The notes under the pieces were generated by a model. It searched no databases and was not told the origin of the DNA. It saw only the letters and a list, made by a program, of their open reading frames with translations. A stretch of 62,269 bases of DNA from Dethiobacter sp. (GTDB taxonomy: Bacteria > Bacillota > Dethiobacteria > DTU022 > UBA8154). The stretch lies in contig QZJM01000057.1 of the NCBI GenBank assembly GCA_003605065.1, forward strand, positions 1 through 62,269. The letters run 5' to 3'. Positions 23,434 through 58,593 of this stretch are shown in pieces; the stretch's first letter is position 1, and every line of letters starts with the position of its first letter. The position numbers were made by a program, and so were the translations under genes.

Positions 23434-23469
23434 CATGCCACTGGACTTACCCTTTCACCCGAAGGGGAT

Positions 23470-23637
23470 TCCTGAACAACCGGGCAGGTCTCCTGGCTCG
23501 TGAGTCATTGCTTCCTCCACCTTCCCGGCCATGATAGCCAGTGGCTTTTTAGGAGGCAAACTCTTCACTTACAGTGGCGGGACCGCGCCGGACTTTCACC
23601 GGCTTCCCTCTTTAAGAAAAACACCTGGTTGCGCCCT
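23470..23637 (-). promoter_or_regulatory. Cobalamin riboswitch controlling the cobU-cbiJ unit
   Basis: Reading the minus strand, the order GGTG, then GGGAA, then GCCGGTGAAAGTCCGGC, then CCCGCCACTGTAAG, then GAGCCAGGAGACCTGCC reproduces the conserved core of the B12-sensing RNA (B12 box near 23478-23500). A terminator follows at 23404-23433, so B12 should cause premature termination before cobU. No other strong terminator is seen until beyond cbiJ, so this single element probably governs all 22 genes. Confidence 0.93.
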
Positions 23638-23667
23638 TAATATATTCAGTTTCTAAGATTACAAATT

Positions 23668-23788: not shown

Positions 23789-23813
23789 AAGATCAATTGA
23801 ATACTTTTTTAAA

Positions 23814-23976
23814 AGGGTGCCCATGGTGGGATAATTGGGAAAGGGGTGAAAATCCCCTGCAGCCCCCGCTACTGTGAGCGAAAGATAATCCTGCGATAAC
23901 CACTGGATGTTTTTTCCGGGAAGGGGCAGGATCGTAAAATGAAGCGCAAGCCAGGAAACCAGCCCTTTTAGCTGCA
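23814..23976 (+). promoter_or_regulatory. Cobalamin riboswitch controlling cbiX-cbiMNQO-hemA
   Basis: The plus strand carries GGTG, TTGGGAA, GGGGTGAAAATCCCC, CCCCCGCTACTGTGAGCG, then CCACTGG and the B12 box AAGCCAGGAAACCAGCC (about 23948-23968). This is a second full cobalamin riboswitch, facing away from the first. A terminator hairpin lies at 24069-24100 before cbiX. Confidence 0.93.
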
Positions 23977-24068
23977 TGTTTTTCCTTCGGAGGGAAGGTT
24001 GATGTGGGCTTATGAAAATTTGTCCCTACCCTTCAGGTAGGGCAAGCTTTTTTAGGGCCAAATGTTAA

Positions 24069-28754: not shown

Positions 28755-29651
28755 TCAGTAGTTAAGAACCAGTACTTCCGGGACAGGCCCGCGTCCACCG
28801 GCCTTGCAGTTTATAGTTCTTTTAGCCATGATCTTTTCCAAACGGTAACCCTTATAGAGGTCCAAGACAGGCTGGAGATAAGAGTTGCTGAGCATGACCT
28901 TACACCCCCGTTTGTCCAGGTCCCGGAAAGTTTGAGCCAGCCGCACCTGGTCTGCATAGGAAAAATTGTCCTCCGTGTAGCTGGTAAAAAAAGCACTGGA
29001 GCTGACGGGGTGATAGGGAGGATCAAAGTAGATAAAATCCCCTTCCCGGGCAGTTGCAACTGCCAGCCGGAAATCCTGGCAGGACAGCTTTACACCGGAT
29101 AAGGCCCCGCTGGCAGCTCTTAAATTGGCCTCGTCCAGGATACGGGGAGATTTATATTTTCCAAAAGGGACATTAAATTGTCCTTTTTTGTTCACACGAT
29201 ACAGCCCGTTAAAGCAGGTCTTATTGAGAAAAAGTGTGCGCGCCGCCCTTTCCAGCGGGTGCAGATTAAGAAAAAAGGCAGCGTCCCTGTCCCAGTTGCG
29301 GATATGATCATAATAATCTCTGCTCAGCTTATTGTTTTCGTGATTTCGTAATGCCTCTATTAGCTGCTCACAATCATCCCTGATAGAGAGATACAGGTTA
29401 ACAAGCTCGCTGTTGCTATCATTCAGATATGCACTGCTAATTTTACTTTCATTAAATAAAAAAAAGAAGAAGGCGCCCCCTCCCACAAAGGGTTCAAAAT
29501 AGTTATTAAACGCTTTGGGCAGAAAAGAAAGATAAGAGGAAAGAAGCTGGTTCTTTCCTCCGGCCCATTTGACAAACGGGGCGGCAGGCATTCTACAGCT
29601 ACGACCGGCTCCGGCTTTAAAGACTGTATTTTCACCGCATCTTTTTAACAT
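28755..29651 (-). CDS. Orphan D12-class DNA adenine methylase (Dam family)
   Basis: N6-adenine methyltransferase of the alpha (D12) class, 298 residues. FVKWAGGKNQLL (residues 26-37), FEPFVGGGAFFF (52-63, SAM motif I) and DPPY (210-213, catalytic motif IV) are intact, and TCFNGLYRVNKKGQFNVPFG is the conserved middle. No cognate endonuclease is nearby, so it is an orphan methylase, perhaps of phage origin given the holin-like and amidase genes that follow. Target sequence cannot be inferred. Confidence 0.9.
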   Translation of the reverse strand: MLKRCGENTVFKAGAGRSCRMPAAPFVKWAGGKNQLLSSYLSFLPKAFNNYFEPFVGGGAFFFFLFNESKISSAYLNDSNSELVNLYLSIRDDCEQLIEALRNHENNKLSRDYYDHIRNWDRDAAFFLNLHPLERAARTLFLNKTCFNGLYRVNKKGQFNVPFGKYKSPRILDEANLRAASGALSGVKLSCQDFRLAVATAREGDFIYFDPPYHPVSSSAFFTSYTEDNFSYADQVRLAQTFRDLDKRGCKVMLSNSYLQPVLDLYKGYRLEKIMAKRTINCKAGGRGPVPEVLVLNY

Positions 29652-30082: not shown

Positions 30083-30790
30083 TTAACATTTAAAATCGTA
30101 ATTACTTGCAGGCTCTAAAAAAACAGTCATAATATAATTCCTTTTTTCTTTTGCTCTATAGAGGGCTTCATCAGCAATTCTAATAAATTGGTCGGTGCCT
30201 ACATCTACCCCTTCTTTTGTTGAGGCTATACCGATACTCACAGTAATTTTGCAAGTGATATTATCATACGAAAAAATGTGATTTTCTACTATCATTCTAA
30301 TTCTATCGGCAATTTTAAAAGCTTCTTCGGTGTCAGTTTGGGGAAGAATTAACGCAAATTCTTCCCCGCCCCATCGGGCGATTATATCGTTTCTTCTCGT
30401 ATTGCCTCGTAGAATTTCCGCAAATTGTTTTAGTACCTGGTCGCCGGCAATGTGCCCGTATGTGTCGTTTACTTTTTTGAAATTATCTAGATCTAGCAGA
30501 ATTAGTGAAACTGGAGCTTTGTTTTGCTGTTCGGATAATTTTGTATAAAAATATTCCCTGTTGCGCAGGCCAGTCAGCACATCAGTATGTGCCCGTCGGT
30601 ACAATTTTTTAATTAAAATGCCACAAATTGTGCTTATTAACACCTGAATTATCACAAAGGTCATCCATACCAGACCTTGATTATGGTTGTAATGTCTATC
30701 TATCAAAAGTGTGATAAGCCATAAAATTAGCCCGCCTGACAATAAAATTGCAGGAGCATATTTATACATTTTTTCTTTAATCGAAACCAC
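30083..30790 (-). CDS. Membrane-anchored diguanylate cyclase (GGDEF)
   Basis: About 235 residues. Two N-terminal membrane helices (about residues 14-31 and 42-60 from the chosen start) are followed by a GGDEF domain with LTGLRNR, LLDLDNFKKVND, the active-site GGEEF (about 141-145) and an RRND inhibitory site exactly five residues before it, so product feedback by c-di-GMP is expected. The chosen start is the GTG at 30790, with AAGGTGGAGG eight bases upstream and a 14-base overlap with the small gene before it. A TTG at 30847 is the alternative. Confidence 0.85.
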   Translation of the reverse strand: MVSIKEKMYKYAPAILLSGGLILWLITLLIDRHYNHNQGLVWMTFVIIQVLISTICGILIKKLYRRAHTDVLTGLRNREYFYTKLSEQQNKAPVSLILLDLDNFKKVNDTYGHIAGDQVLKQFAEILRGNTRRNDIIARWGGEEFALILPQTDTEEAFKIADRIRMIVENHIFSYDNITCKITVSIGIASTKEGVDVGTDQFIRIADEALYRAKEKRNYIMTVFLEPASNYDFKC

Positions 30791-30938
30791 CCTTTTGACC
30801 TCCACCTTTGCAATAATACTCAACAATATACTTATCAATTTTTTCACTTATTTTAAGAAGAATTTCCTTGCTTATGTTTATTTTTACCGCATTATTAAGG
30901 ATATTTCTTGCTATTTTTATTTTATCTTTTTCGTTCAC
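30777..30938 (-). CDS. Spo0E-like aspartyl-phosphate phosphatase candidate
   Basis: 53 residues from the GTG at 30938. The tail ISEKIDKYIVEYY resembles the SQ-x-LD...I..Y helix of Spo0E-family phosphatases, which dephosphorylate Spo0A~P and delay sporulation, although the canonical SQELD reads SEKID here. A first helix rich in K/I/N precedes it, giving the expected helical hairpin. GGGGTG lies six bases before the start, and a promoter at 30974-31002 would exclude the longer frame. The 3' end overlaps the diguanylate cyclase start, so the two are coupled. Family assignment is tentative. Confidence 0.5.
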   Translation of the reverse strand: MNEKDKIKIARNILNNAVKINISKEILLKISEKIDKYIVEYYCKGGGQKGGFD

Positions 30939-30973
30939 TCCGTTCACCCCATGTAAAAATAACCACAAACATA

Positions 30974-31002
30974 ATTTTACATCAAATATTAGCTTATTGC
31001 AA
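30974..31002 (-). promoter_or_regulatory. Promoter of the Spo0E-like/GGDEF pair
   Basis: Minus-strand TTGCAA (31002-30997) and TAAAAT (30979-30974) are separated by 17 bases. Predicted transcription starts near 30967, 29 bases before the GTG at 30938. Confidence 0.55.
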
Positions 31003-31081
31003 ATAATAATGATATGCACACAGCAAATTCAGATACGGCTTAAAGTCAGATAAAGTATTTAAAAGTAGGGAGTGAACGAAA

Positions 31082-31468
31082 ATGGAGAAAAAAGTTGAGA
31101 TAGATAACAAGGCCATCGGGCAGAGAATACGGGAAGAAAGGGAAAAGCTCCAGCTTTCGCGGGAAGAGTTTGCAGAAATCATAGGACTTTCGGACTACTA
31201 TATCGGGCAACTGGAGCGGGGAGAGAGGCAGATGAGTCTCCCCGTTTTGGTTAAAATCGTCAATTGTTTACACGTGTCTTTAGATTACCTGATTTTCGGA
31301 GAAACTGCTCATAATGTTTATGTTCACGATGCCCATAATATTTATGATACCTGTGGCAGTAATAAAGACAGGGATGTAAAAAGTTTACTCAACAAGTGCT
31401 CGCCGAAAGAATTAGAGTTAGTCAAAAAACTTATAAGAACTATTCTTCCTTATTTAGGCAAAAACTAA
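31082..31468 (+). CDS. XRE-family transcriptional regulator
   Basis: 128 residues. A Cro/C1-type helix-turn-helix spans about residues 12-70 (IGQRIREEREKLQLSREEFA, LSDYYIGQLERGERQMSL, then LDYLIFG). A short linker holds the near-repeat AHNVY...AHNIY (76-88) with three histidines, two aspartates and a cysteine, which might bind metal. The C-terminal helix SPKELELVKKLIRTILPYL resembles dimerisation helices of small repressors. AGGGAGTGA precedes the ATG. It is divergent from the Spo0E-like/GGDEF pair and is its obvious candidate regulator (inference). Confidence 0.85.
   Translation: MEKKVEIDNKAIGQRIREEREKLQLSREEFAEIIGLSDYYIGQLERGERQMSLPVLVKIVNCLHVSLDYLIFGETAHNVYVHDAHNIYDTCGSNKDRDVKSLLNKCSPKELELVKKLIRTILPYLGKN
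31310..31346. repeat. Short imperfect direct repeat in the XRE gene
   Basis: CATAATGTTTATG at 31310-31322 and CATAATATTTATG at 31334-31346, 24 bases apart in register, encode the duplicated HNVY/HNIY motif. Confidence 0.6.
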
Positions 31469-31478
31469 AAGAGCTATT

Positions 31479-32243
31479 TTATTCACTGAGGTTATGATAT
31501 GCATTTGGATCGATCCTCCTCTTCTTTTTATCCTTTTTTTTGAGGCTCTTATTAGTATAAGGTTTTTTAAGCAGGAAGAGATAAAAACGTCTTAAGACCA
31601 CTGCCGTCTGCGCCCTGGTCAGCGGTTCATCAGGATAAAATTTGCCGTCACTTTTCCCTGCCATAAGCCTGTTGTCTTTTACAAATCTAATCCCTTCCGC
31701 CGCCCAGTGATTGGCGGGTACATCCGGAAAGATATTCTCCCCTAAATTTTGTTTTACAGCAGTAAGAAATTGATCCCAACCATTTAGCCTGCCGCGCAGC
31801 ACCCGCGGACAATTCTTGCCGCTCCACCGGTTGTGCTGCACAACCTGGTTAATATCCAACCCGAATTTTTGCAAGAGATCCGCTACCAGCCAGGCTGCAT
31901 TGGCCTCTGCTTTCTGCCTGTTTCCATCCTGGTTCTCACATATTTCGATACCGATACTGCTCCGGTTCCCTGGTCCGTTCAGCCCGTCACCGGCATGCCA
32001 GCCTACCTCGTTGAGGGGAAGGTGTTGGACGATTTGTTTATCATCAACGGTAAAATGCCAGGAAACAGGTAGTTTGGCTGCTTCATCCCCTTTGAGGTAC
32101 CGGGCGTGCGCCAGGGCGTCCGCCCCTGCCCTGGTGTTTGCCGTGTCGTGAACCGTAATCCACTTCGGACCGGAGAGCTTCAGGCTTGACCTGTTCGGCC
32201 TCCCTGACGGGATAAAATCCTCTATGATTTGTGGAAATACCAC
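31479..32243 (-). CDS. N-acetylmuramoyl-L-alanine amidase with SLH repeat
   Basis: 254 residues. The amidase_2 (T7 lysozyme-like) domain has zinc ligands His32 (ITVHDTAN), His137 (VVQHNRW) and Cys145 (KNCPR), plus the IGIEICEN strand. It cleaves the amide bond between N-acetylmuramate and the stem peptide. A single S-layer homology repeat at about 171-220 (FPDVPANHWAAEGI, FYPDEPLTRAQTAVVL) would bind secondary wall polymer. A basic KKKDKKKRR patch follows. There is no signal peptide, so export would need a holin, as for phage endolysins. GTG start with GAGGTGAT upstream. Confidence 0.88.
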   Translation of the reverse strand: MVFPQIIEDFIPSGRPNRSSLKLSGPKWITVHDTANTRAGADALAHARYLKGDEAAKLPVSWHFTVDDKQIVQHLPLNEVGWHAGDGLNGPGNRSSIGIEICENQDGNRQKAEANAAWLVADLLQKFGLDINQVVQHNRWSGKNCPRVLRGRLNGWDQFLTAVKQNLGENIFPDVPANHWAAEGIRFVKDNRLMAGKSDGKFYPDEPLTRAQTAVVLRRFYLFLLKKPYTNKSLKKKDKKKRRIDPNAYHNLSE

Positions 32244-44688: not shown

Positions 44689-45750
44689 TCAATCATTTTT
44701 AACCGCCTCCTCCAGGTATTCATCCAGGTACCTCTCCAGAAAAGGCCTAAAATCTGCTGCCCTCCTGAGGATGTCTTCTTCGTATGTACCCCGAAACTGT
44801 TCATCCTTGATTTCGTGACAGGCTACAAAATGGCCCTCTTTAATATGCCTTAATTCCGGTTTTTTTTCACAGCCCATGCTGGCCTGAGGACAGCGGGAAT
44901 AAAAACTGCAGCCTGAAGCATGGTCAGGCACGGTCCCCTTTTTGTAATCATCCTTTAACATGGTCCCGTATTTGTTCTCCTGGCCCAATTGTGAAAATGC
45001 CTTTACCAGCATCCTGGTGTAAGGATGCCGGGGATTATCGTATACTGTTTTGGAAGGTCCAATTTCTACTATATCTCCTTTGTACATAATTGCCGTCCTG
45101 TCGCTCATCCAGCACACTACCTCCAGGTCATGGGAGATAAACAAGTAGGCAATATTAAACATTTTTTGAATATCTTTTAGCAGGTTTAAAACCTGGGCCT
45201 GCACAGAAACATCCAGCATGGAAGTAGGTTCATCGGCCACGATAAAGCAGGGCTTTAAGGATAGAATCCGGGCCAGCACCGCCCTTTGAATCTGCCCCCC
45301 ACTTAATTCATGGGGGTATCGATTTAAATGTTCTTTGTTCAGGCCTACCAGGTCAATCAACTCATAAGCCTTTTTTCTTTCTTCCCGTCTGCTGTTATAA
45401 ACCTGCTGAATCTGCATGGGTTCCATAATGCTTTCATAAATTTTCATCCGGGGATTTAGGGCAGACTCGGGGTGCTGAAAGATAATCTGCATTTTTGACC
45501 TGGTGCGCTGCAGTTCCCCAAGCCCTAAAGCCATAAGGTCAACCCTGTCCAGATAAACCTTTCCCTCAGTAGGTTCAAGGAGCCTCAGCATCATTCTCCC
45601 CAGAGTAGATTTACCGCAACCGCTCTCTCCTACCAGCCCCAAGGTCTCTCCCGGTTGAATGTCGATGGATACGCCATTAACGGCATTAACCCGCTTCCTT
45701 TTGAAAACTCCCGTGGAAAAGCTTTTTTTCAGGTTTACAGTTCTGATCAT
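44689..45750 (-). CDS. ABC importer ATPase F (system 2, Opp/Dpp/Nik type)
   Basis: 353 residues. Walker A GESGCGKST is at 41-49, followed by LSGGQIQRAV and Walker B FIVADEPTSMLD. The oligopeptide-family C-terminal domain has cysteines in SGCSFYSRCPQASMGC, which carry an iron-sulfur cluster in some DppF homologues. A 30-residue acidic C-terminal extension (ERYLDEYLEEA) is unusual. It overlaps the preceding ATPase gene by 65 bases but has its own GAGGTG Shine-Dalgarno, so the overlap is probably real. Last gene of the island. Confidence 0.9.
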   Translation of the reverse strand: MIRTVNLKKSFSTGVFKRKRVNAVNGVSIDIQPGETLGLVGESGCGKSTLGRMMLRLLEPTEGKVYLDRVDLMALGLGELQRTRSKMQIIFQHPESALNPRMKIYESIMEPMQIQQVYNSRREERKKAYELIDLVGLNKEHLNRYPHELSGGQIQRAVLARILSLKPCFIVADEPTSMLDVSVQAQVLNLLKDIQKMFNIAYLFISHDLEVVCWMSDRTAIMYKGDIVEIGPSKTVYDNPRHPYTRMLVKAFSQLGQENKYGTMLKDDYKKGTVPDHASGCSFYSRCPQASMGCEKKPELRHIKEGHFVACHEIKDEQFRGTYEEDILRRAADFRPFLERYLDEYLEEAVKND

Positions 45751-46687
45751 TAAAGAGGCACCTCACTTTACAACCATCATCAACTATTTCAAGCCGGGGA
45801 TGTTTCTGGGCACAATCTTTAGCTGCCTGGTTACAGCGGGGATGAAATTTACAGCCGGCAGGCAATTCTATCAGGCTCGGGCTGAGGCCCCTGACCGGGA
45901 CCAGCCCGTTAGAGGGAAGAGAAGCTATCAACCCCCTGGTATAAGGGTGCCTGGGTAAAGATAATATATCTCTTGTTGGACCTGTCTCTATTATTTCCCC
46001 TGCATACATGACGGCTATTTTGTCACAAAGGCAGGAAGCTACTTTTAGATCATGGGTGATAAGGAGCATGGTTGCAGAAGTCCTTAACACCAGCTGCCTT
46101 AAAATTTCCACTACCTGGATACGAATTAAGGCATCCAGGCCCTTGGTCGGTTCATCGGCAATTAACAGGGATGGTTCCCCGGCAATGCCCATGGCCGCCA
46201 GGACCCTTTGTTTCATGCCGCCGCTTAACTGGTGAGGGTACTCTTCTGCCCTTTTACCGGGATCGGGAAAATCAAAAGAACGGAGCATTTCTATGGCGGC
46301 CTGCCGGGCTTTTTTCCAGGGTAACCGCTGCTGCAGGTGAAAGACCTCGGCAACCTGGAAGCCTATTTTTAATACCGGGTTAAGGGAAGTAGAAGGGTTT
46401 TGAGGGATTAAAGCAATTTCTTTTCCCCTGATTTTTCGAATCTCCTTTTCAGGTAATCCCGTTAGATTTAAACCTTTATAAGCTATGGTGCCCTTAACCT
46501 CTGCATTGGTCGGTAACAGGCCCATTATGGATAGGCCGAGAACCGATTTGCCACAGCCTGTTTCCCCTACCAGCCCCATAATCTCCCCTTCTTCAATTAC
46601 CAGGTCAACCCCGTTAACTGCTTTTACCACTCCATCCCCTGTATTAAAGCTTGTCTCCAGGTTTTCTATATTCAACAAGTAACCCAT
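45686..46687 (-). CDS. ABC importer ATPase D (system 2)
   Basis: About 333 residues from the ATG at 46687 (AGGAGG nine bases upstream). Walker A GETGCGKSVLG, Q-loop IPQNPSTSLNP, signature LSGGMKQRV, Walker B LLIADEPTKGLD. The C-terminal region has the cysteine pattern CKFHPRCNQAAKDC typical of DppD/OppD. It pairs with ATPase F to power the two permeases encoded upstream. Confidence 0.91.
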   Translation of the reverse strand: MGYLLNIENLETSFNTGDGVVKAVNGVDLVIEEGEIMGLVGETGCGKSVLGLSIMGLLPTNAEVKGTIAYKGLNLTGLPEKEIRKIRGKEIALIPQNPSTSLNPVLKIGFQVAEVFHLQQRLPWKKARQAAIEMLRSFDFPDPGKRAEEYPHQLSGGMKQRVLAAMGIAGEPSLLIADEPTKGLDALIRIQVVEILRQLVLRTSATMLLITHDLKVASCLCDKIAVMYAGEIIETGPTRDILSLPRHPYTRGLIASLPSNGLVPVRGLSPSLIELPAGCKFHPRCNQAAKDCAQKHPRLEIVDDGCKVRCLFNDQNCKPEKKLFHGSFQKEAG

Positions 46688-46731
46688 TAATATTTTCCTC
46701 CTGTTATCAACAGTCAACTTCAAATTATTGA

Positions 46732-47628
46732 TTAAAATTTTTGAAATAATTTGCTTTTTAATCTGGGATCCATAATGTCCCTCAACCCATCTCCCAAAAA
46801 ATTAAAGGCTAAAACTGTAATCATTATTGCCAATCCAGGGAAAATGGTCAAGTGAGGGGCTCTCCGCATAAAAGGGACTCCCTGGTTTAACATCATTCCC
46901 CATTCTGGAGTTGGCGGCTGAGCTCCCAAACCTAAAAAGCTCAAACCGGCAATTGACAGGATAGCGCCTCCTATGCTGAGAGTCATTATTACAATTACCG
47001 GCCCCATACAGTTTGGTAAAATATGACGGCATAACAGGTAAATATCACTTGCACCAAGGGCCTTTGCGGATTCCACGTATTCCTGTTCTTTTATGGATAA
47101 GACCGAACCCCTTACCACCCTGGCATACTTGGTCCATCCAACGGCAGCCAGGGCTATAATAATGTTTTTCAGGTCCGGACCTAAAACTCCTGCTATCACT
47201 AAAGTCAAAACTATGCTGGGGAAGGATAACACTATATCTGTAATTCTCATTATTAATTCATCCATTATTCCTCCGAAGTATCCCGCCAGCAGCCCGGTAA
47301 AGACTCCAATACCCATGGTTAATACAGCAGAAATCACTCCTGTAGTAAGGGATATTCTTATGCCATAAATAAGCCGGCTGAAAAGGCACCTGCCAAACTG
47401 ATCGGTTCCCATTAAATACTTTTCGTTTGAACCGGTTAAACGAATTTCTAAATTCTGCTCATAGGGGTCACGGAGGGTAATTAAAGGAGCAAATACTGCC
47501 ATTAGGACCAGGACTGATATTATTATTAAACCAACAGCAGCCAGCTTGTTTTCTTTTAAAGCACTAAATGTTCTGTTTAACCTTTTTTTTTGCCAAACAT
47601 ACCGGTCGCCTGTTAATACTCCTCTCAT
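46732..47628 (-). CDS. ABC importer permease C (system 2)
   Basis: 298 residues of the OppC/DppC/NikC family. The N-terminal OppC segment (FSALKENKLAAVGLIIISVL) is followed by HPxG-like MGTDQFGRCLFSRLIYG and the EAA coupling loop EYVESAKALGASDIYLLCRH. About six hydrophobic helices. The start shares one base with the end of permease B. Confidence 0.91.
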   Translation of the reverse strand: MRGVLTGDRYVWQKKRLNRTFSALKENKLAAVGLIIISVLVLMAVFAPLITLRDPYEQNLEIRLTGSNEKYLMGTDQFGRCLFSRLIYGIRISLTTGVISAVLTMGIGVFTGLLAGYFGGIMDELIMRITDIVLSFPSIVLTLVIAGVLGPDLKNIIIALAAVGWTKYARVVRGSVLSIKEQEYVESAKALGASDIYLLCRHILPNCMGPVIVIMTLSIGGAILSIAGLSFLGLGAQPPTPEWGMMLNQGVPFMRRAPHLTIFPGLAIMITVLAFNFLGDGLRDIMDPRLKSKLFQKF

Positions 47629-48578
47629 TATTCCATCCCCTTTTCATACCTGATCCTGGGATTAAGATAAGCGTAAGAAATATCTACTATCAGGTTGGAA
47701 AAAACAAAAACAAGGGCAAAAAATAAAACGCATCCCTGGATTGCTGGAAAATCCCGGGCAAAAACAGATTCATGTAAATATCTTCCAATTCCTGGGCGGG
47801 CAAATATGGATTCTACAATAACTGCCCCTTCAAGAGCCCAGCCCAGCTGGAGCCCAACATATGTTACTACCGGTATCAATGCATTTTTCAGGGCATGTCC
47901 GGTTATGACCCGGTAATAAGGCAGCCCCTTGGCTTTAGCCGTCAATATATAATCCTGGGAAATAATCTCCAACATGCTTGAACGCATCAACCTGGCAACC
48001 ATTGCTGCCATACCGGTCCCAAGGGTAACAGCCGGCAGCACCAGGTACCTGAACCCTCCGTAACCAGCCACCGGTAACAGGCCCAGTTTCAATGAAAAAA
48101 ACATCATGAGAAGGAGGGCCAGCCAAAAATTTGGCATGGAAACTCCCAATAAAGCTCCAATCATGCTAAAAATATCTAAAAATGAATTCCTTTTTACTGC
48201 AGAAATTATTCCGACAGGAACGGCAATACCTAAGGAAATTAAAGTGCTTAAAAGAGCCAGTTCAAGGGTGGCCGGAAACCTGGATAACAGTTCTGTTAAG
48301 ACGGGACGTCCGGTTCGGAAAGAATTACCCAGGTCCCCTTGAATTACTTTTTTCAACCATTTACCGTACTGAACATAAAATGGTATATTTAAACCCATTT
48401 CTTCCCTTAGTTCCTCTACGGCTTGGCGGGGAGGGTCTGCTCCGCCAAGCCGCCCCCTCAATATTAACTCTGCCGGGTCACCGGGTGCCAGGTGCATGGT
48501 AGAGAAAGTAATTAAAGTAACACCCAATAGTATTGGAACCAGCATCAAAATTCGCCGGAGAAGGTACCTTAACATCAA
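47628..48578 (-). CDS. ABC importer permease B (system 2)
   Basis: 316 residues of the OppB/DppB/NikB family. It starts MMLRYLLRRILMLVPILLGV, has the LAPGDPAELILRG loop, the ALYS-like ATLELALLSTLISLGIAVPVG helix and the EAA loop DYILTAKAKGLPYYRVITGH. Six membrane segments expected. Fourteen bases downstream of the binding-protein gene. Confidence 0.91.
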   Translation of the reverse strand: MMLRYLLRRILMLVPILLGVTLITFSTMHLAPGDPAELILRGRLGGADPPRQAVEELREEMGLNIPFYVQYGKWLKKVIQGDLGNSFRTGRPVLTELLSRFPATLELALLSTLISLGIAVPVGIISAVKRNSFLDIFSMIGALLGVSMPNFWLALLLMMFFSLKLGLLPVAGYGGFRYLVLPAVTLGTGMAAMVARLMRSSMLEIISQDYILTAKAKGLPYYRVITGHALKNALIPVVTYVGLQLGWALEGAVIVESIFARPGIGRYLHESVFARDFPAIQGCVLFFALVFVFSNLIVDISYAYLNPRIRYEKGME

Positions 48579-48591
48579 TCAGCATCCTTTT

Positions 48592-50190
48592 CTATTCCCC
48601 TATATAGATATTCTCCAGGTGAAAGCAGGATTCTGTCGGATGTTCGTTATAGCCCTGTACATTGGAACGAACAGCTGTAACATTTACATAGTGATTTAAG
48701 AACATAACGGGAGTCTCATCCACAATTATCTCCTGCAATTTAGCAAAATATTTTTTCCTCTCCTGGAGGTTTGTAGTTCTTTGAGTCAGTTCAATTAATT
48801 CATCTACATGTTTATTATTAAATCCATAGGCTCCCCACCCTTTGCCGCCAGTATTTTTTGAGTGAAAATCTGACATAAGGTAATAACTGGGATCAGGGGC
48901 AAAGCCCAGGTTCCGGGCCAACAGGTACATATCAAACTTGCCTTCTTCCCGTAATGATTGAGCAGCACCTGTTTCAAGAACTTGTATGTTTACCTGTATT
49001 CCTGCCTTTTTCAGCTGGTCCTGGATTACTTCAGCCATGGGGGGCAGTTCTGCCCTGGTGGAATAAGTAATAAGGTCAACGGTAAAGGGTTTACCGTCCT
49101 TTTTAATTATTCCGCTGTTATCGGAATCCTTCCATCCGGCTTCTGCAAGCAGCGTTTTAGCTTTTTCCAAATCATAGGGGTATCCTTGAAGATTTTTATT
49201 AACCCAGGGGGTTGTAGGTGGAAAAGGTCCACTGGCAGCCACGTCAACTCCTGCCATAATGTGCTTCACAATAGACTCCCGGTCAATGGCATGATTTACT
49301 GCCTTTCTAACCCTGAGATCATTAAAAGGCTCTCTTAGCATATTTAATACTATTACACGAGAACGTAAAATAGGTTTAGTATAAACCTTAATCTCAGGAT
49401 TTGCTTCCAGCTGCTCAACTGCATCGGCAGGAAGAATCTGTGCTACATCCAGCTCTTTATTTTCAAGCATCATTATCCTGGTAGCAGCCTCGGGGATTCC
49501 TTTATAAACAACCTTATCCAGGGTAGGGATTTTACCCCAGTAGTCATCATTCCTTACCAACACAGCCTCTTGATCAGGAATCCAGGAAGATAACATAAAC
49601 GGGCCTGTGCCAATTATTTCTTTAAACTCTCCGTTTGCATCCAAAGAATTTTTTGATACGGGGGCTGCTTCACCTTTAGCCAGGATAGCAGCTAAAGGTG
49701 CGAATAGCTCCTCTGTTACAATAGTTAAAGTGTAATCACCCCGGGCTTCTATAGATTTTATGGGCACGTCTTTAAATAAAGTACCTTTTTCCATAACCCT
49801 TTCCAGTGACCACTTTACTGCTTCGGCATTGAGCGGTGTTCCATCGTGAAACTTAACTCCCTCTTCCAGTTTAAAGGTCCACTCCAGCTCATCACTGGAT
49901 ATTTCCCAGGATTTTGCCAATCCTGGTACAAGATTTATATCATAGTCAATAGCAACCAGGGTGTCCACCAGCCCTATCCTTAGAACAAGCCACCCTGCAC
50001 TTACGGGGTCCAGTTCTTTAGGAGTCCAGGGCGATCCTATCACTAGTTCTTGAGGAATTTTCTCTTGAGGACTCTCTCCTTCAGCACTCTTTTCTTGAGG
50101 AACTTTATTGCCCCCACAGCCGCTGATCAATAAACACATTACAAGCAGTAACAATAATAAAACATTTTTACCTGATGTAAGACGAGACAT
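48592..50190 (-). CDS. Extracytoplasmic solute-binding lipoprotein (family 5, system 2)
   Basis: 532 residues. A lipoprotein signal peptide (hydrophobic 10-21, lipobox LISGC, Cys25) precedes a family 5 binding domain. Hallmarks are VPGLAKSWEISSDELEWTFKL, FHDGTPLNAEAVKWSLERV, GTGPFMLSSW, RNDDYWG and FNDLRVRKAVNHAIDRESI. Family 5 proteins bind peptides, nickel complexes or metallophores. The neighbouring DUF4198 and NikA-like genes make a metal complex plausible, but no ligand residue can be assigned. Confidence 0.88.
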   Translation of the reverse strand: MSRLTSGKNVLLLLLLVMCLLISGCGGNKVPQEKSAEGESPQEKIPQELVIGSPWTPKELDPVSAGWLVLRIGLVDTLVAIDYDINLVPGLAKSWEISSDELEWTFKLEEGVKFHDGTPLNAEAVKWSLERVMEKGTLFKDVPIKSIEARGDYTLTIVTEELFAPLAAILAKGEAAPVSKNSLDANGEFKEIIGTGPFMLSSWIPDQEAVLVRNDDYWGKIPTLDKVVYKGIPEAATRIMMLENKELDVAQILPADAVEQLEANPEIKVYTKPILRSRVIVLNMLREPFNDLRVRKAVNHAIDRESIVKHIMAGVDVAASGPFPPTTPWVNKNLQGYPYDLEKAKTLLAEAGWKDSDNSGIIKKDGKPFTVDLITYSTRAELPPMAEVIQDQLKKAGIQVNIQVLETGAAQSLREEGKFDMYLLARNLGFAPDPSYYLMSDFHSKNTGGKGWGAYGFNNKHVDELIELTQRTTNLQERKKYFAKLQEIIVDETPVMFLNHYVNVTAVRSNVQGYNEHPTESCFHLENIYIGE

Positions 50191-53233: not shown

Positions 53234-54133
53234 CTATTTTTTTAGAACCGGTTCCTTTTCCTCACAAATCTGTTCCCGGTAATCACATAATTCCTTATAC
53301 TTGCAACCGGTATAATTCCTGTCACTGGTTATTGGAATGTTGCTATCCAGGGGATGCACTGCTTCCGGGTCAGGTATTATTAAGGAATCCAGTAAACCCC
53401 GGGTATAGGGATGAACGGGGTTAGAGAAAATATCTTCGGCATTTCCTTCCTCTAGCATTGTACCTTTATACATTACGGCAATCCTGTCTGCAATACAGCG
53501 GGCAACATGTAAGTCATGGGTAATAAAAAGACAGGAAAGCTGAAACTTTTTTTGTAATTCTTTAAATATGGTTAAAATCTGTGCCTGAACTGATACATCC
53601 AGGGATGAAGTTGGTTCATCGGCAACTATAAAATCAGGTTTTAACAACAAGGCTCTGGCCAGGATAATTCTCTGTAACTGGCCACCGCTTAGTTCAAAGG
53701 GATACCGGTTCAGGTGCTCATGGCTTAACCCTACGGTTTCAATCAGTTCCATTATCCTGTCCCGGCTTTCCTTTCCGTTAGCAAGCCCGTGAATTCTTAA
53801 TGGTTCTGAAAGGCTTTTTTCTATTATCCAGCGAGGGTTTAAAACTGTGTCAGGATCCTGGAATATTATCTGTAACCTGGTTCTGAATTTTTTTAATTCT
53901 TTTGGCCTATATTTAAATATATTTTCTTTCCGGTAAAGAACCATGCCGGAGGTTGGCTTAATCAGGCCTGCAATCATCATTCCTGCAGTAGTTTTTCCAC
54001 ATCCACTTTCTCCCAACAGGCATAGTGTCTCCCCCTTTTTAATTTTAAAAGACACATTTTTTACTGCATCATTTTTATTCCGTTGAAACAGGCCGTAGTA
54101 AAAACTTTTGGAAAGATTAACTGCTTCAAGCAT
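53234..54133 (-). CDS. ABC importer ATPase F (system 1)
   Basis: 299 residues, the usual OppF/NikE size. Walker A GESGCGKTT, signature LSGGQLQRI, Walker B FIVADEPTSSLD and the H-loop ITHDLHVAR. The C-terminal cysteines CKYKELCDYREQIC are close to the family's cluster pattern. It lacks the acidic tail of its system 2 counterpart. It overlaps ATPase D by eight bases. Confidence 0.9.
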   Translation of the reverse strand: MLEAVNLSKSFYYGLFQRNKNDAVKNVSFKIKKGETLCLLGESGCGKTTAGMMIAGLIKPTSGMVLYRKENIFKYRPKELKKFRTRLQIIFQDPDTVLNPRWIIEKSLSEPLRIHGLANGKESRDRIMELIETVGLSHEHLNRYPFELSGGQLQRIILARALLLKPDFIVADEPTSSLDVSVQAQILTIFKELQKKFQLSCLFITHDLHVARCIADRIAVMYKGTMLEEGNAEDIFSNPVHPYTRGLLDSLIIPDPEAVHPLDSNIPITSDRNYTGCKYKELCDYREQICEEKEPVLKK

Positions 54134-55067
54134 AAAAACACCTCACAATATGCTTACCTCCCTTTCTCCCAAACATAGGAACTTCTTTTTGGCAGTCTTT
54201 TTCAGCCCGGCTGCATCGACTAAAAAATTTACATCCTTCAGGCAGATTAATTAATGAAGGGCTGAAACCTTTAATGGGCTTTAAACCTTTGGCCGGGTGA
54301 GAATTCAGCAGGCCTTTCGAATATGGATGGAGGGGGTTTTTAAACACTTCCCTGGTAGGACCGTATTCCACTATTTCTCCTGCGTACATAATTGCCATGC
54401 TATCTGTAAGGGCTGCAGCCACACTTATATCATGGGTAATCAGCAGCATAGACCTCTGCCCCTTGCCATTTTTAATTATGCTGTTTAACAAACCGGCAAT
54501 CTGGTTTTGAACAGTTACATCCAGCCCCCTGGTAGGTTCATCGGCAATATAAAAAAGGGGTTGGCAGGCCAAACAAATTGCAACCATGGCCCTCTGCCTC
54601 ATTCCCCCACTGTACTGGTGAGGGTAATAATGGGCAAATCTTGGAGGCATACCCACCTGGCTCAGTATAGCTTCTGCTTTTTCCCAGGCCTCCTTCTTAT
54701 TCAACCCCTGGTGTTTTTGCACTGTTTCCGCAATCTGCTCCCCTATTTTAAGAGATGGGTTTAAGGAACTGGAAGGGTTCTGAAAAATAAGGGCGATTTC
54801 TTTCCCGCGGATTTTGTTCATCTCCTCTTCTCCAAGTGCCAGGATATTCCTGTTGCCATACCAGATTTCACCGGTAACCCGGGCCGTCTGGGGAAGAATT
54901 TTTATAATTGCCTGTCCCAAAACTGTTTTACCTGAACCCGTCTCACCGATGAGCCCTAGAATTTCTCCAGAATATATTGTTAAGTTCAAATTATTAGCGG
55001 CTTTTACTATGCCATCTTTTGAATTAAAATTAACAGAAAGATCTTTGATCTTTAATACCGACTCCAC
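54126..55067 (-). CDS. ABC importer ATPase D (system 1)
   Basis: 313 residues. Walker A GETGSGKTVLG at about 41-51, Q-loop IFQNPSSSLNP, signature YSGGMRQRA and Walker B FYIADEPTRGLD, with the C-terminal CKFFSRCSRAEKDC cysteine pattern of the oligopeptide/nickel family. Twenty-one bases downstream of permease C. Confidence 0.9.
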   Translation of the reverse strand: MESVLKIKDLSVNFNSKDGIVKAANNLNLTIYSGEILGLIGETGSGKTVLGQAIIKILPQTARVTGEIWYGNRNILALGEEEMNKIRGKEIALIFQNPSSSLNPSLKIGEQIAETVQKHQGLNKKEAWEKAEAILSQVGMPPRFAHYYPHQYSGGMRQRAMVAICLACQPLFYIADEPTRGLDVTVQNQIAGLLNSIIKNGKGQRSMLLITHDISVAAALTDSMAIMYAGEIVEYGPTREVFKNPLHPYSKGLLNSHPAKGLKPIKGFSPSLINLPEGCKFFSRCSRAEKDCQKEVPMFGRKGGKHIVRCFYA

Positions 55068-55088
55068 GATATAACCTCCGGCATATTA

Positions 55089-55925
55089 TTAAGTCTTAAT
55101 AATTTCCTTTGTTCGGGGATCCAGAACATCCCTTAACCCGTCTCCTAACAGGTTAAAAGCAAACACCGCTATGATAATGGCCAGTCCGGGAGAAATGATC
55201 ACGTGTGGGTGAGTAAAAATAAACTGTTTACCTTCACTAAGCATGGATCCCCATTCCGGTGTAGGGATTTGAACTCCCAATCCCAGAAAACTGAGGGCAG
55301 CAATGGACATTATCATGTGCCCCATGTTCAGGGTTGCCAGCACCACCAGGAAAGGAATAATACTGGGTATGACATGCCGGGTTATTATATAAAAGTCTCC
55401 TCCCCCTATGGCTTTTATGGATATAATAAAATCCTGTTCTTTTAAGGACAATACTAACCCCCGGGTTATCCTGGCATAATTAGTCCATCCCAGGGCAACC
55501 AGGGCAAAAACAAGGTTGGGGATAGAAGGTCCGAGTATGCCTATTACCAGCAGGGCAAAAATAATATTGGGAAAAGCCAAAAGAATATCTACCAATCTCA
55601 TGGTTAATTCATCAACAGCCCCCCCGAAAAATCCCGATGCGGTTCCGATGAAAACACCTATGCATAAATTAATCAGCACCACCAGCACTGCCAGGCTTAA
55701 GGAAAACCGTGCCCCAAAAACAATGCGGCTAAAAATATCTCGCCCGTAACCGTCAGTACCCAGGATATTTTTCCCGCCGGGCCTGTTTAACCTGTTTTCT
55801 ACCTCTACATAGTTTGGATCAAAGGGAGCAACGTAGGAAGCCAGGAGTGAAACCATTATTAAAAGGGTAAGTAGAAATAGCCCGAAAATCAGCAGCCTGT
55901 TTTTTGGAAATATCTTTTTTGACAA
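55089..55925 (-). CDS. ABC importer permease C (system 1)
   Basis: 278 residues of the DppC/NikC family. ILGTDGYGRDIFSRIVFGAR and the coupling loop DFIISIKAIGGGDFYIITRH are typical, with FLGLGVQIPTPEWGSML near the C-terminus. TTG start with GGGGAGG upstream, two bases after the permease B stop. Confidence 0.9.
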   Translation of the reverse strand: MSKKIFPKNRLLIFGLFLLTLLIMVSLLASYVAPFDPNYVEVENRLNRPGGKNILGTDGYGRDIFSRIVFGARFSLSLAVLVVLINLCIGVFIGTASGFFGGAVDELTMRLVDILLAFPNIIFALLVIGILGPSIPNLVFALVALGWTNYARITRGLVLSLKEQDFIISIKAIGGGDFYIITRHVIPSIIPFLVVLATLNMGHMIMSIAALSFLGLGVQIPTPEWGSMLSEGKQFIFTHPHVIISPGLAIIIAVFAFNLLGDGLRDVLDPRTKEIIKT

Positions 55926-55927
55926 GG

Positions 55928-56872
55928 TCAGTTCCTCCCCTGTTCAAATCTTATCCGGGGATCCAGGTAAGCATAGGACAGGTCAACCAATAAATTTATT
56001 ACTACGAACATTGCCGCAATAATAAACACAAATCCTTGAATAACCGGATAATCCCGGGCATAAATTGAATCAACCAGGTATTTACCTATGCCCGGCCAGG
56101 AAAATACCGTTTCTATGATTATAGTACCGGCCAGCAGGTGACCAAACTGGGTTCCAATAATAGTTATAACCGGAATCAGGGCATTTCTAAAGGCATGCTT
56201 CCATATTATTAGCGGCCTGTTTAAACCCTTTGACCTGGCCATTTTAATATAATCCAGGTTTAATACCTCCAGCATGCTTGCTCTCATTAGGCGCATTAAA
56301 AGGGCTGACATGCCGGTACTAAGGGTAACGGTAGGCAAAATAAAATGATAAATGGTGCCATAACCAAAGCTGGGCAGCCATTTAAGGGTCAGGGAAAAAA
56401 GCACCATTAACATCAAGCCCAGCCAAAATTCCGGAATGGAAAGAATGCCCAGTCCTATAACCCGGGTTACATGATCGACCACAGAACCCGGCCTGGTAGC
56501 AGCCAAAACGCCCAGGGGAAAAGCAATTAAAACAGCCAGGACTAGAGAAATAACCGCAAGTAAAAAAGTAGCCCCAAACCTGTCCTTAAACTCATGTAAA
56601 ACAGGTTCGCCGGTTCTTACAGAAATGCCTAGATCTCCTTTGCTTAACATGCCAAACCATATGGTAATATTATCCAGCAATGGTATGTTTAAATTTCTGT
56701 TCTCCCTAAATATTTCTATTTCTGCCTGGGTAGGTTCCCGTCCCGTTTGACTTTTTATTATGGACACGGCCGGGTCGCCGGGAGCCATGTAAAGAAAGAA
56801 ATATGAAAGAAAAGAAGCTGCCAGCATAACCAGAATGGATATTACTAATCTTTGGATAATTATTTTGCCCAA
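55928..56872 (-). CDS. ABC importer permease B (system 1)
   Basis: About 314 residues from the TTG at 56872, which has GGGGAGG seven bases upstream. An upstream frame to 56908 lacks a ribosome-binding site. The MAPGDPAVSIIKSQTGREPT loop, the TFLLAVISLVLAVLIAFPLG helix and the EAA loop DYIKMARSKGLNRPLIIWKH are as in NikB/DppB. Confidence 0.9.
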   Translation of the reverse strand: MGKIIIQRLVISILVMLAASFLSYFFLYMAPGDPAVSIIKSQTGREPTQAEIEIFRENRNLNIPLLDNITIWFGMLSKGDLGISVRTGEPVLHEFKDRFGATFLLAVISLVLAVLIAFPLGVLAATRPGSVVDHVTRVIGLGILSIPEFWLGLMLMVLFSLTLKWLPSFGYGTIYHFILPTVTLSTGMSALLMRLMRASMLEVLNLDYIKMARSKGLNRPLIIWKHAFRNALIPVITIIGTQFGHLLAGTIIIETVFSWPGIGKYLVDSIYARDYPVIQGFVFIIAAMFVVINLLVDLSYAYLDPRIRFEQGRN

Positions 56873-56934
56873 AAGAATCCTCCCCTTACCGGGGTTATGT
56901 GTAAACACATAACCCCGGTTTTACTGCAGGTTAT

Positions 56935-58518
56935 CTAGTTTATTTTTATTTCCGAGAAATCCATGTCAAACATGGTTGGTGCCGGTTTAAACCCCGTAAT
57001 ACTTTCCCGATATGCTGAGACTTTTACAATATCGTACAGGGGAATGCAGGGTGCCTCATAGTGCAATATGTCCCATACTTTATTAATCAGCTCTTTTCGT
57101 TTGGATTCATCGGGGGTTAACCAGGCTTCTTCAATAAGCCTGTCAAGTTCCGGGCTGTGGTAAGCTGCAGGCCAGCTGGTGCTTCCGGAATGGTATTTTC
57201 CCCCTATATCTATTCCTCCGGGAACCCAGGGCAGGCAGAAACTATGGTGTACAAACATTTCATATTCCCCCTGCTTGCTTCGGTCCCAGGCCGCCCCGCT
57301 TTCCAGGGTAAGAAGTTTCAATTCTACCCCAATCTTTTTAAGTTCTGACTGGACAAAAATTGCAACTGCATCTGCATTAGCTTCCCCGGCCGGTATAAGC
57401 AATTCTACTTCCAATGGTTTTCCTTCTTTTTCTAATTTGCCGCTGCTGTTCATACTCCACCCCGCCTCTGTCAACAGGCTTTTAGCTTTGTTTAAATCAT
57501 AGTGGAAATATTTACTATTAACTTTTGAAGGACCGTATTTAAACCATGGTGCAGTTATGGTGTATGCAGGCTCAGTTAAACCATGAAATAACTCCCGGAC
57601 CATTTTTTCTTTGTCTATAGCATAGTTAAAAGCCATCCTCACCTTCCGGTCATTAAAAGGTTCCCTCAAGGTATTAAATTCCAACACCTGGTAACGGCCG
57701 TATGATGTTTTATCTACATTAATCCCCGCATCCTCCATGGCAGGTACTTCAACATAAGGCACACTAGAGTGATGTTCTGTAATTCCTATCATGTCTACAT
57801 CTCCTGCTTTCAGGGCTACTATTTGAGCATGAGGGTCAGGTATTGTTTTCCATATAACCCTGTTTATTTCCGACTTTTTGCCCCAGTAATTATCGTTGCG
57901 CACCAGTTCTGCGTCCCGGTCTTTATGATAGGAAACCAGTTTAAAGGGTCCGGTCCCTATGTATTCCGCTAATTTACCCGAGGGATCTCCCTTGGGATCT
58001 ACAGCATCAGGAGAAACCACCAGGTTTTTTGCTAAATCCTGCAAAAAAAGCGGGTAATAATCTTTTAAATATACTTTTACTGTATTCCCGTCGACAGTTT
58101 CTATCTTATCCAGGTATTTTCCCCAGACTGAATTATTTGCATTATACTCCAGAGCAAATTTCGCCAGTGAAGCATCAAATTCGGTTCCGTTATGAAATGT
58201 GACTCCTTCCCTTATTTTAAAAACATATGTTTTGCTATCGCCCGGTATCTCCCATAATTCAGCCAGCATGGGTACCGGATTTCCTTCATGATCAACGCTA
58301 ACCAGATATTCAAAGACCATGTTCCTTCCCTGGGCAGCGCTTTTAAAATCTCTTGCAGCACCCAGTCTTAAAACCTGCTCTTTTTGATCTGAGGGATATG
58401 CTTTTTCTCCAACCTTTTTCGGATCAGAAGCATTACTTCCACATCCGCTTATCATTACAAATAACATCAAGCACAGTAAAACTAACGCCGCTCCTTTATG
58501 AAAAAATTTAAATGTCAT
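56935..58518 (-). CDS. NikA-like solute-binding lipoprotein (family 5, system 1)
   Basis: About 527 residues from the ATG at 58518 (GGGAGG seven bases upstream). Lipoprotein signal with lipobox MISGC (Cys26). The body follows NikA more closely than DppA: FHNGTEFDASLAKFALEYN, KIETVDGNTVKVYLKDYYPL, GTGPFKLVSYH, RNDNYWGKK, IPDPHAQIVALKAGDVDMIG and FNDRKVRMAFNYAIDKEKM. NikA binds nickel as a small-molecule complex, so a metal complex is the likely cargo. This is family-based inference. Confidence 0.88.
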   Translation of the reverse strand: MTFKFFHKGAALVLLCLMLFVMISGCGSNASDPKKVGEKAYPSDQKEQVLRLGAARDFKSAAQGRNMVFEYLVSVDHEGNPVPMLAELWEIPGDSKTYVFKIREGVTFHNGTEFDASLAKFALEYNANNSVWGKYLDKIETVDGNTVKVYLKDYYPLFLQDLAKNLVVSPDAVDPKGDPSGKLAEYIGTGPFKLVSYHKDRDAELVRNDNYWGKKSEINRVIWKTIPDPHAQIVALKAGDVDMIGITEHHSSVPYVEVPAMEDAGINVDKTSYGRYQVLEFNTLREPFNDRKVRMAFNYAIDKEKMVRELFHGLTEPAYTITAPWFKYGPSKVNSKYFHYDLNKAKSLLTEAGWSMNSSGKLEKEGKPLEVELLIPAGEANADAVAIFVQSELKKIGVELKLLTLESGAAWDRSKQGEYEMFVHHSFCLPWVPGGIDIGGKYHSGSTSWPAAYHSPELDRLIEEAWLTPDESKRKELINKVWDILHYEAPCIPLYDIVKVSAYRESITGFKPAPTMFDMDFSEIKIN

Positions 58519-58593
58519 TATTTTGCCTCCCAATGATAAATTTTTTATATTACCTTAAAAACAAAATTGTTTCCAAGGTCTGGAACCGATGGT

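Follow-up and report, generated by a model that had tools for sequence, protein, structure and literature searches.

The 62,269-nucleotide stretch of DNA analysed here (contig QZJM01000057.1 of a Dethiobacter sp., hereafter the window) contains an AT-rich block at 30083–31468, in which a gene for an XRE-family regulator is divergent from two overlapping genes, one for a Spo0E-like peptide and one for a membrane GGDEF protein. The block is best explained as a cyclase cassette under XRE control, probably gained by lateral transfer and here carrying a Spo0A~P phosphatase as well, which would place two sporulation brakes on one transcript; our confidence in this explanation is about evenly balanced. 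The core of this cassette would be the cyclase and the XRE regulator, with spo0E as an accessory brake that is intact only in the lineage of the source genome (G000).

Spo0E-like Peptide

An earlier note on this DNA had proposed a 53-residue Spo0E-like peptide, and a profile search against Spo0E gave the match. The minus-strand gene at 30777–30938 encodes 53 aa (GTG start at 30938 and TAA at 30777–30779, read directly from the sequence), and its product matches Pfam PF09388 over residues 4–42 with 28.5 bits and an E-value of 1.5e-6, above the curated cut-off of 23; in the genome-wide PF09388 search it scores 27.7 bits. An in-frame GTG at 30947 may be the start instead of 30938. The SxxxD motif is kept as SEKID, with the serine and aspartate common to the window peptide and its aligned Spo0E relatives, while no NCBIfam profile matched the peptide. 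An AlphaFold model built from the single sequence has helices at residues 3–19 and 24–43 with a mean pLDDT of 77.4; Foldseek of this model against the PDB gave nothing at E ≤ 0.001, 2bzb, a solved protein aspartic acid phosphate phosphatase of the Spo0E type, ranking third with a non-significant E of 3.7, and phmmer of the peptide against PDB sequences gave zero matches. By profile and motif, the window peptide is a member of the Spo0E family, and its activity as a Spo0A~P phosphatase is predicted.

It has been reported that Spo0E carries an SxxxD motif with a critical aspartate and that C. difficile Spo0E, also of 53 aa, represses sporulation and binds Spo0A and RstA (PMC11115286, available part). 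The window peptide is like the Spo0E proteins of B. subtilis and C. difficile in size, SxxxD motif, Pfam match and two-helix prediction, and Spo0A is present in its genome (one Spo0A_C place, PF08769, 153 bits, on contig C5). It differs from the family in that its gene overlaps a diguanylate cyclase gene within an AT-rich block of patchy distribution, its sequence is divergent and its phosphatase role is a predicted one. The peptide may instead be a Spo0E-fold adaptor that acts mainly on another partner, such as a regulator or another response regulator, and is no Spo0A~P phosphatase. The binding of RstA by C. difficile Spo0E and the Spo0E effects on motility in two species, apparently independent of Spo0A (PMC11115286, available part), agree with such a role, as does the score of the window copy, the weakest of the four Spo0E places in its own genome, all of which lie above the PF09388 cut-off; however, the peptide retains the serine and aspartate of the motif and the genome has Spo0A, and we consider an adaptor improbable. 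A Spo0A~P phosphatase is preferred.

Cyclase, Overlap and Divergent Regulator

Beside the peptide gene, the same note had placed a membrane GGDEF protein, and this identification holds. The minus-strand frame at 30083–30790 encodes 235 aa from the GTG at 30790 (the longest frame, from the GTG at 30847, has 254 aa) and matches PF00990 with 154.6 bits and an E-value of 2.5e-45, and hydropathy and motif scans found two hydrophobic segments, predicted to span the membrane, together with an intact I-site (RRND) and an intact A-site (GGEEF). By profile, this neighbour is a membrane diguanylate cyclase, for which c-di-GMP synthesis is predicted; the genome holds seven GGDEF places above the cut-off and one PilZ domain place, a possible c-di-GMP receptor. 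The 14-base overlap of the peptide gene with the GGDEF start, also claimed earlier, can be read directly at 30777–30790 on the minus strand. A ribosome-binding site for the cyclase, GGAGG at 30799–30803(-), lies inside the spo0E frame, 8 nt before the GGDEF GTG, and in the three-locus alignment GGAG is kept in the two other genomes that carry the block, G004 from the same genus and G009 from another genus.

The divergent XRE-family regulator at 31082–31468(+) has 128 aa and an HTH_3 match of 48.1 bits, and its identity is 87% in G004 and 77% in G009. Between it and spo0E lies the divergent intergenic region at 30939–31081, which has 30.8% GC and is well conserved across the three loci; it contains a promoter-like pair at 31003–30974(-) with 9 of 12 matches, a kind of pair that shuffled sequences hold about as often (9 found versus 5.5 ± 3.0 expected from the shuffles). 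As a candidate for the single promoter that the earlier note had placed before the two genes, it therefore does not stand out from chance. Control of spo0E and the cyclase by the XRE protein is plausible. A 14-nt inverted repeat (30928–30941 and 31069–31082) covers both translation starts, and its core GTGAAC is partly kept in G004 and not in G009. As an XRE operator this repeat was rejected, being absent in G009 and matched in length by repeats in 526 of 20,000 simulated sequences.

PMC8653836 (available part) reports that c-di-GMP has a negative effect on early sporulation in C. difficile and leaves the route unidentified. The C. difficile cyclase DccA treated in that paper and the window cyclase both have a GGDEF domain in which A-site and I-site are intact, and a c-di-GMP brake on early sporulation would point in the same direction as Spo0E; unlike DccA, the window cyclase is paired with spo0E and an XRE gene, and two predicted TM helices are its sole input. 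Similarly, the window locus shares with the C. difficile sin locus (PMC5864091, available part) an HTH_3 regulator close to functions in c-di-GMP and sporulation. Since sinRR' mutants have raised dccA transcript and c-di-GMP, the sin locus offers an earlier case in which a SinR-type regulator lies upstream of a cyclase, direct control being beyond what the available part of that work shows. The window XRE differs from the SinR-type regulators of C. difficile as a divergent gene that scores far under the cut-off of the NCBIfam SlrR profile (20.5 of 250 bits).

The cassette would thus consist of the XRE regulator and a divergent operon in which the gene of a Spo0E-like phosphatase precedes that of a diguanylate cyclase with two TM segments. 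The XRE protein would most likely repress transcription in both directions; once repression is relieved, Spo0E would take the phosphate off Spo0A~P while the cyclase would raise c-di-GMP, and the transcript would keep the cell non-sporulating and surface-attached. Co-transcription, XRE control, the enzymatic activities and the joint effect on sporulation are all what we infer from the sequence and from these precedents.

Conservation of the Block and of spo0E

The cyclase was sought across 97 genomes of the class, and the XRE–GGDEF block was found in three of them (G000, G004 and G009; cyclase E ≤ 1e-112), the next-best match reaching 49% identity over the GGDEF domain only. Within the genus, the block is present at the DNA level in two of five genomes, and one genome without it is only 62% complete. 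Among the best 80 of 576 GGDEF relatives (34–45% identity), a scan of genome contigs gave a Spo0E match in 0 of 80 stretches.

The earlier note had staked its proposal on conservation of the small frame, which largely fails here, the frame being intact in one of the three block carriers, G000. In G004 it is a relic that has lost about 53 nt and then 1 nt, and its stop codon is gone too, and in G009 the XRE gene, the intergenic region and the cyclase are kept while spo0E is absent save about 20 nt around the cyclase ribosome-binding site, which may reflect either loss or a gene never acquired. Because neither G004 nor G009 has an intact spo0E, the conserved pair is the XRE gene and the cyclase, with spo0E accessory to them. 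Between G000 and G004, the XRE and GGDEF genes look to be under purifying selection (dN/dS 0.35 and 0.33, respectively); the value of 0.5 for the spo0E remnant covers only 30 codons, too few to weigh.

The translational coupling claimed for the pair did not survive this comparison: an obligate form is unlikely because the cyclase is kept without an intact spo0E in G004 and G009, and the three-locus alignment rules out coupling as a conserved feature. The same loci bear on whether the small frame works mainly as a leader bringing ribosomes to the start of the cyclase gene, as the 14-nt overlap and the ribosome-binding site within the frame might suggest; yet the cyclase is kept where any intact upstream frame is lacking, and resemblance to Spo0E is nothing that a leader requires, which makes this role very unlikely. 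A more serious competitor is that the functional unit is the XRE gene and the cyclase, the Spo0E frame being a passenger on its way to loss with no lasting role. An intact gene in one carrier, a relic in the second and none in the third agree with this, as does the cyclase's own ribosome-binding site, retained in all three carriers, whereas the window frame is intact, with its motif and a profile match above the cut-off, and other genomes of the family retain different spo0E genes that overlap a GGDEF-HD-MEDS gene. We give this explanation a minor but real share of probability, clearly below that of a cassette with Spo0E as accessory brake. By the aligned sequences, a joint function of spo0E and the cyclase at the window locus is not conserved.

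Probable Mobility of the Block

The block has 35.6% GC against 47.5% for the window, the lowest of 305 sliding windows of equal size (mean 47.5%, sd 4.2), and its counterparts in G004 and G009 have 35.5% and 35.6%. The homologous block (30122–31484) sits at another site in G004: on contig C29 of that genome the two flanks of the window locus adjoin, with 283 bp and no block between them, and the block itself lies on contig C15, with a tRNA-Arg gene on either side and a tyrosine integrase about 1 kb away. In G009 it adjoins a Phd/YefM–ParE pair (L372:179-782) and a receiver-domain gene, so that three genomes give three different neighbourhoods. The block looks mobile because no part of the window is richer in AT and because its neighbours differ from genome to genome; it thus stands at unrelated sites and has a foreign composition, as expected of a mobile cassette. 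At the window block no recombinase or terminal repeat was found, a comparison of the ends by eye revealed no common repeat, and the G004 copy alone has a tyrosine integrase in its vicinity.

Cyclase identity is 84% between G000 and G004, 77% between G000 and G009 and 82% between G004 and G009, while a protein next to a different spo0E, judged RecD-like by eye, shows 91% identity within the genus and 74% between genera. Divergence within the genus versus between genera is thus 16% versus 18–23% for the GGDEF protein and 9% versus 26% for the RecD-like protein. The block was probably acquired laterally, to judge from its composition, its changing neighbours and these divergences; vertical inheritance with rearrangement may be an alternative to lateral movement. 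A viral or plasmid source was rejected for want of a close match: viral contigs gave one distant XRE (53% over 57 residues), phages five distant XREs, all under 60%, and plasmids only GGDEFs under 60%.

Other Features of the Window

Near the block, a D12-class adenine methyltransferase lies at 28755–29651(-), with no restriction partner noticed nearby. In addition, two cobalamin riboswitches stand back to back at 23466–23643(-) and 23798–23981(+), between divergent gene groups, and two similar peptide-type ABC transporter clusters (44689–50190 and 53234–58533) each lie beside a SAM-methyltransferase-like frame, these being named by eye.

Second Spo0E–GGDEF Pair and Its Distribution

Another Spo0E frame of the same genome also overlaps a gene for a c-di-GMP enzyme. 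On contig C35 (L086:1432-3757), the gene for a 716-aa enzyme with GGDEF, HD_5 and MEDS domains shares 23 nt at its end with that of a 65-aa Spo0E (31.9 bits). Unlike the window pair, the C35 pair has the enzyme first and the added HD and MEDS domains and is spread over five genera of the family; with the earliest starts, overlaps of this type measure 11 to 50 nt in seven genomes. If about one gene per kb is assumed, the chance that two of four Spo0E genes adjoin one of seven GGDEF genes is about 2e-4.

The survey of relatives covered 65 Spo0E places in 60 relatives (60 + 4 scanned, with the window as the 65th), using GGDEF, MEDS and Spo0E script profiles built from few sequences, which can miss weak members. 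Seven of the 65, namely the window, G015 and five others, have a GGDEF domain in reach, in each case on the strand of spo0E, and in an eighth, G006, spo0E overlaps the end of a GGDEF-HD-MEDS protein at the contig edge; the pairing occurs at 8 of 41 places inside the family and at none of the 24 places in other families. Meanwhile, the class has 12 places with a match reaching the MEDS part, of which six adjoin spo0E, five have none adjacent (G012, G020, G017, G007 and a fragment in G003) and one runs off the contig end. The link of Spo0E with a c-di-GMP enzyme, as the earlier note had drawn it, is better supported by the C35-type pair (seven genomes, five genera) than by the window pair, which is intact in one genome and fails as a conserved unit.

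Wider Bacillota Sample and MEDS Fusions

Spo0E occurs in 226 of 398 genomes of the phylum. Among 90 Spo0E stretches examined, 30 of them covered with 1.5 kb per side only, three contain a GGDEF domain and none has it overlapping on the same strand, so within the sample the coupling is a feature of the source family. MEDS occurs in 54 of the 398 genomes, and at 4 of 56 MEDS places outside the source genome Spo0E lies in the same polypeptide, always above the Pfam cut-off. These fusions (L224, L226, L264 and L275), from four genomes of three other Bacillota families, link Spo0E to MEDS apart from GGDEF. Spo0E matches were also seen inside longer frames of about 240–280 aa (L355, L048, L055 and L080), which are possible further fusions.

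Significance

A search of the open-licence literature by title found no paper on Spo0E paired with a diguanylate cyclase, MEDS or c-di-GMP. How c-di-GMP feeds into clostridial sporulation is a pathway still to be identified according to the available part of PMC8653836, and a Spo0A~P phosphatase in one transcript with a c-di-GMP enzyme would be a direct candidate route. The stronger leads to such a route are the C35 pair and the Spo0E–MEDS fusions; the window pair suggests that couplings of this kind can also arise and decay within moving blocks. More tentatively, and at a likelihood well short of even, Spo0E phosphatases may be a recurring output arm of c-di-GMP/MEDS sensory modules, occurring as MEDS fusions in some Bacillota, as overlaps with GGDEF-HD-MEDS genes in the source family and, independently, beside a membrane cyclase in a mobile XRE cassette. 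If this is true, an acquired element could keep its host from sporulating.
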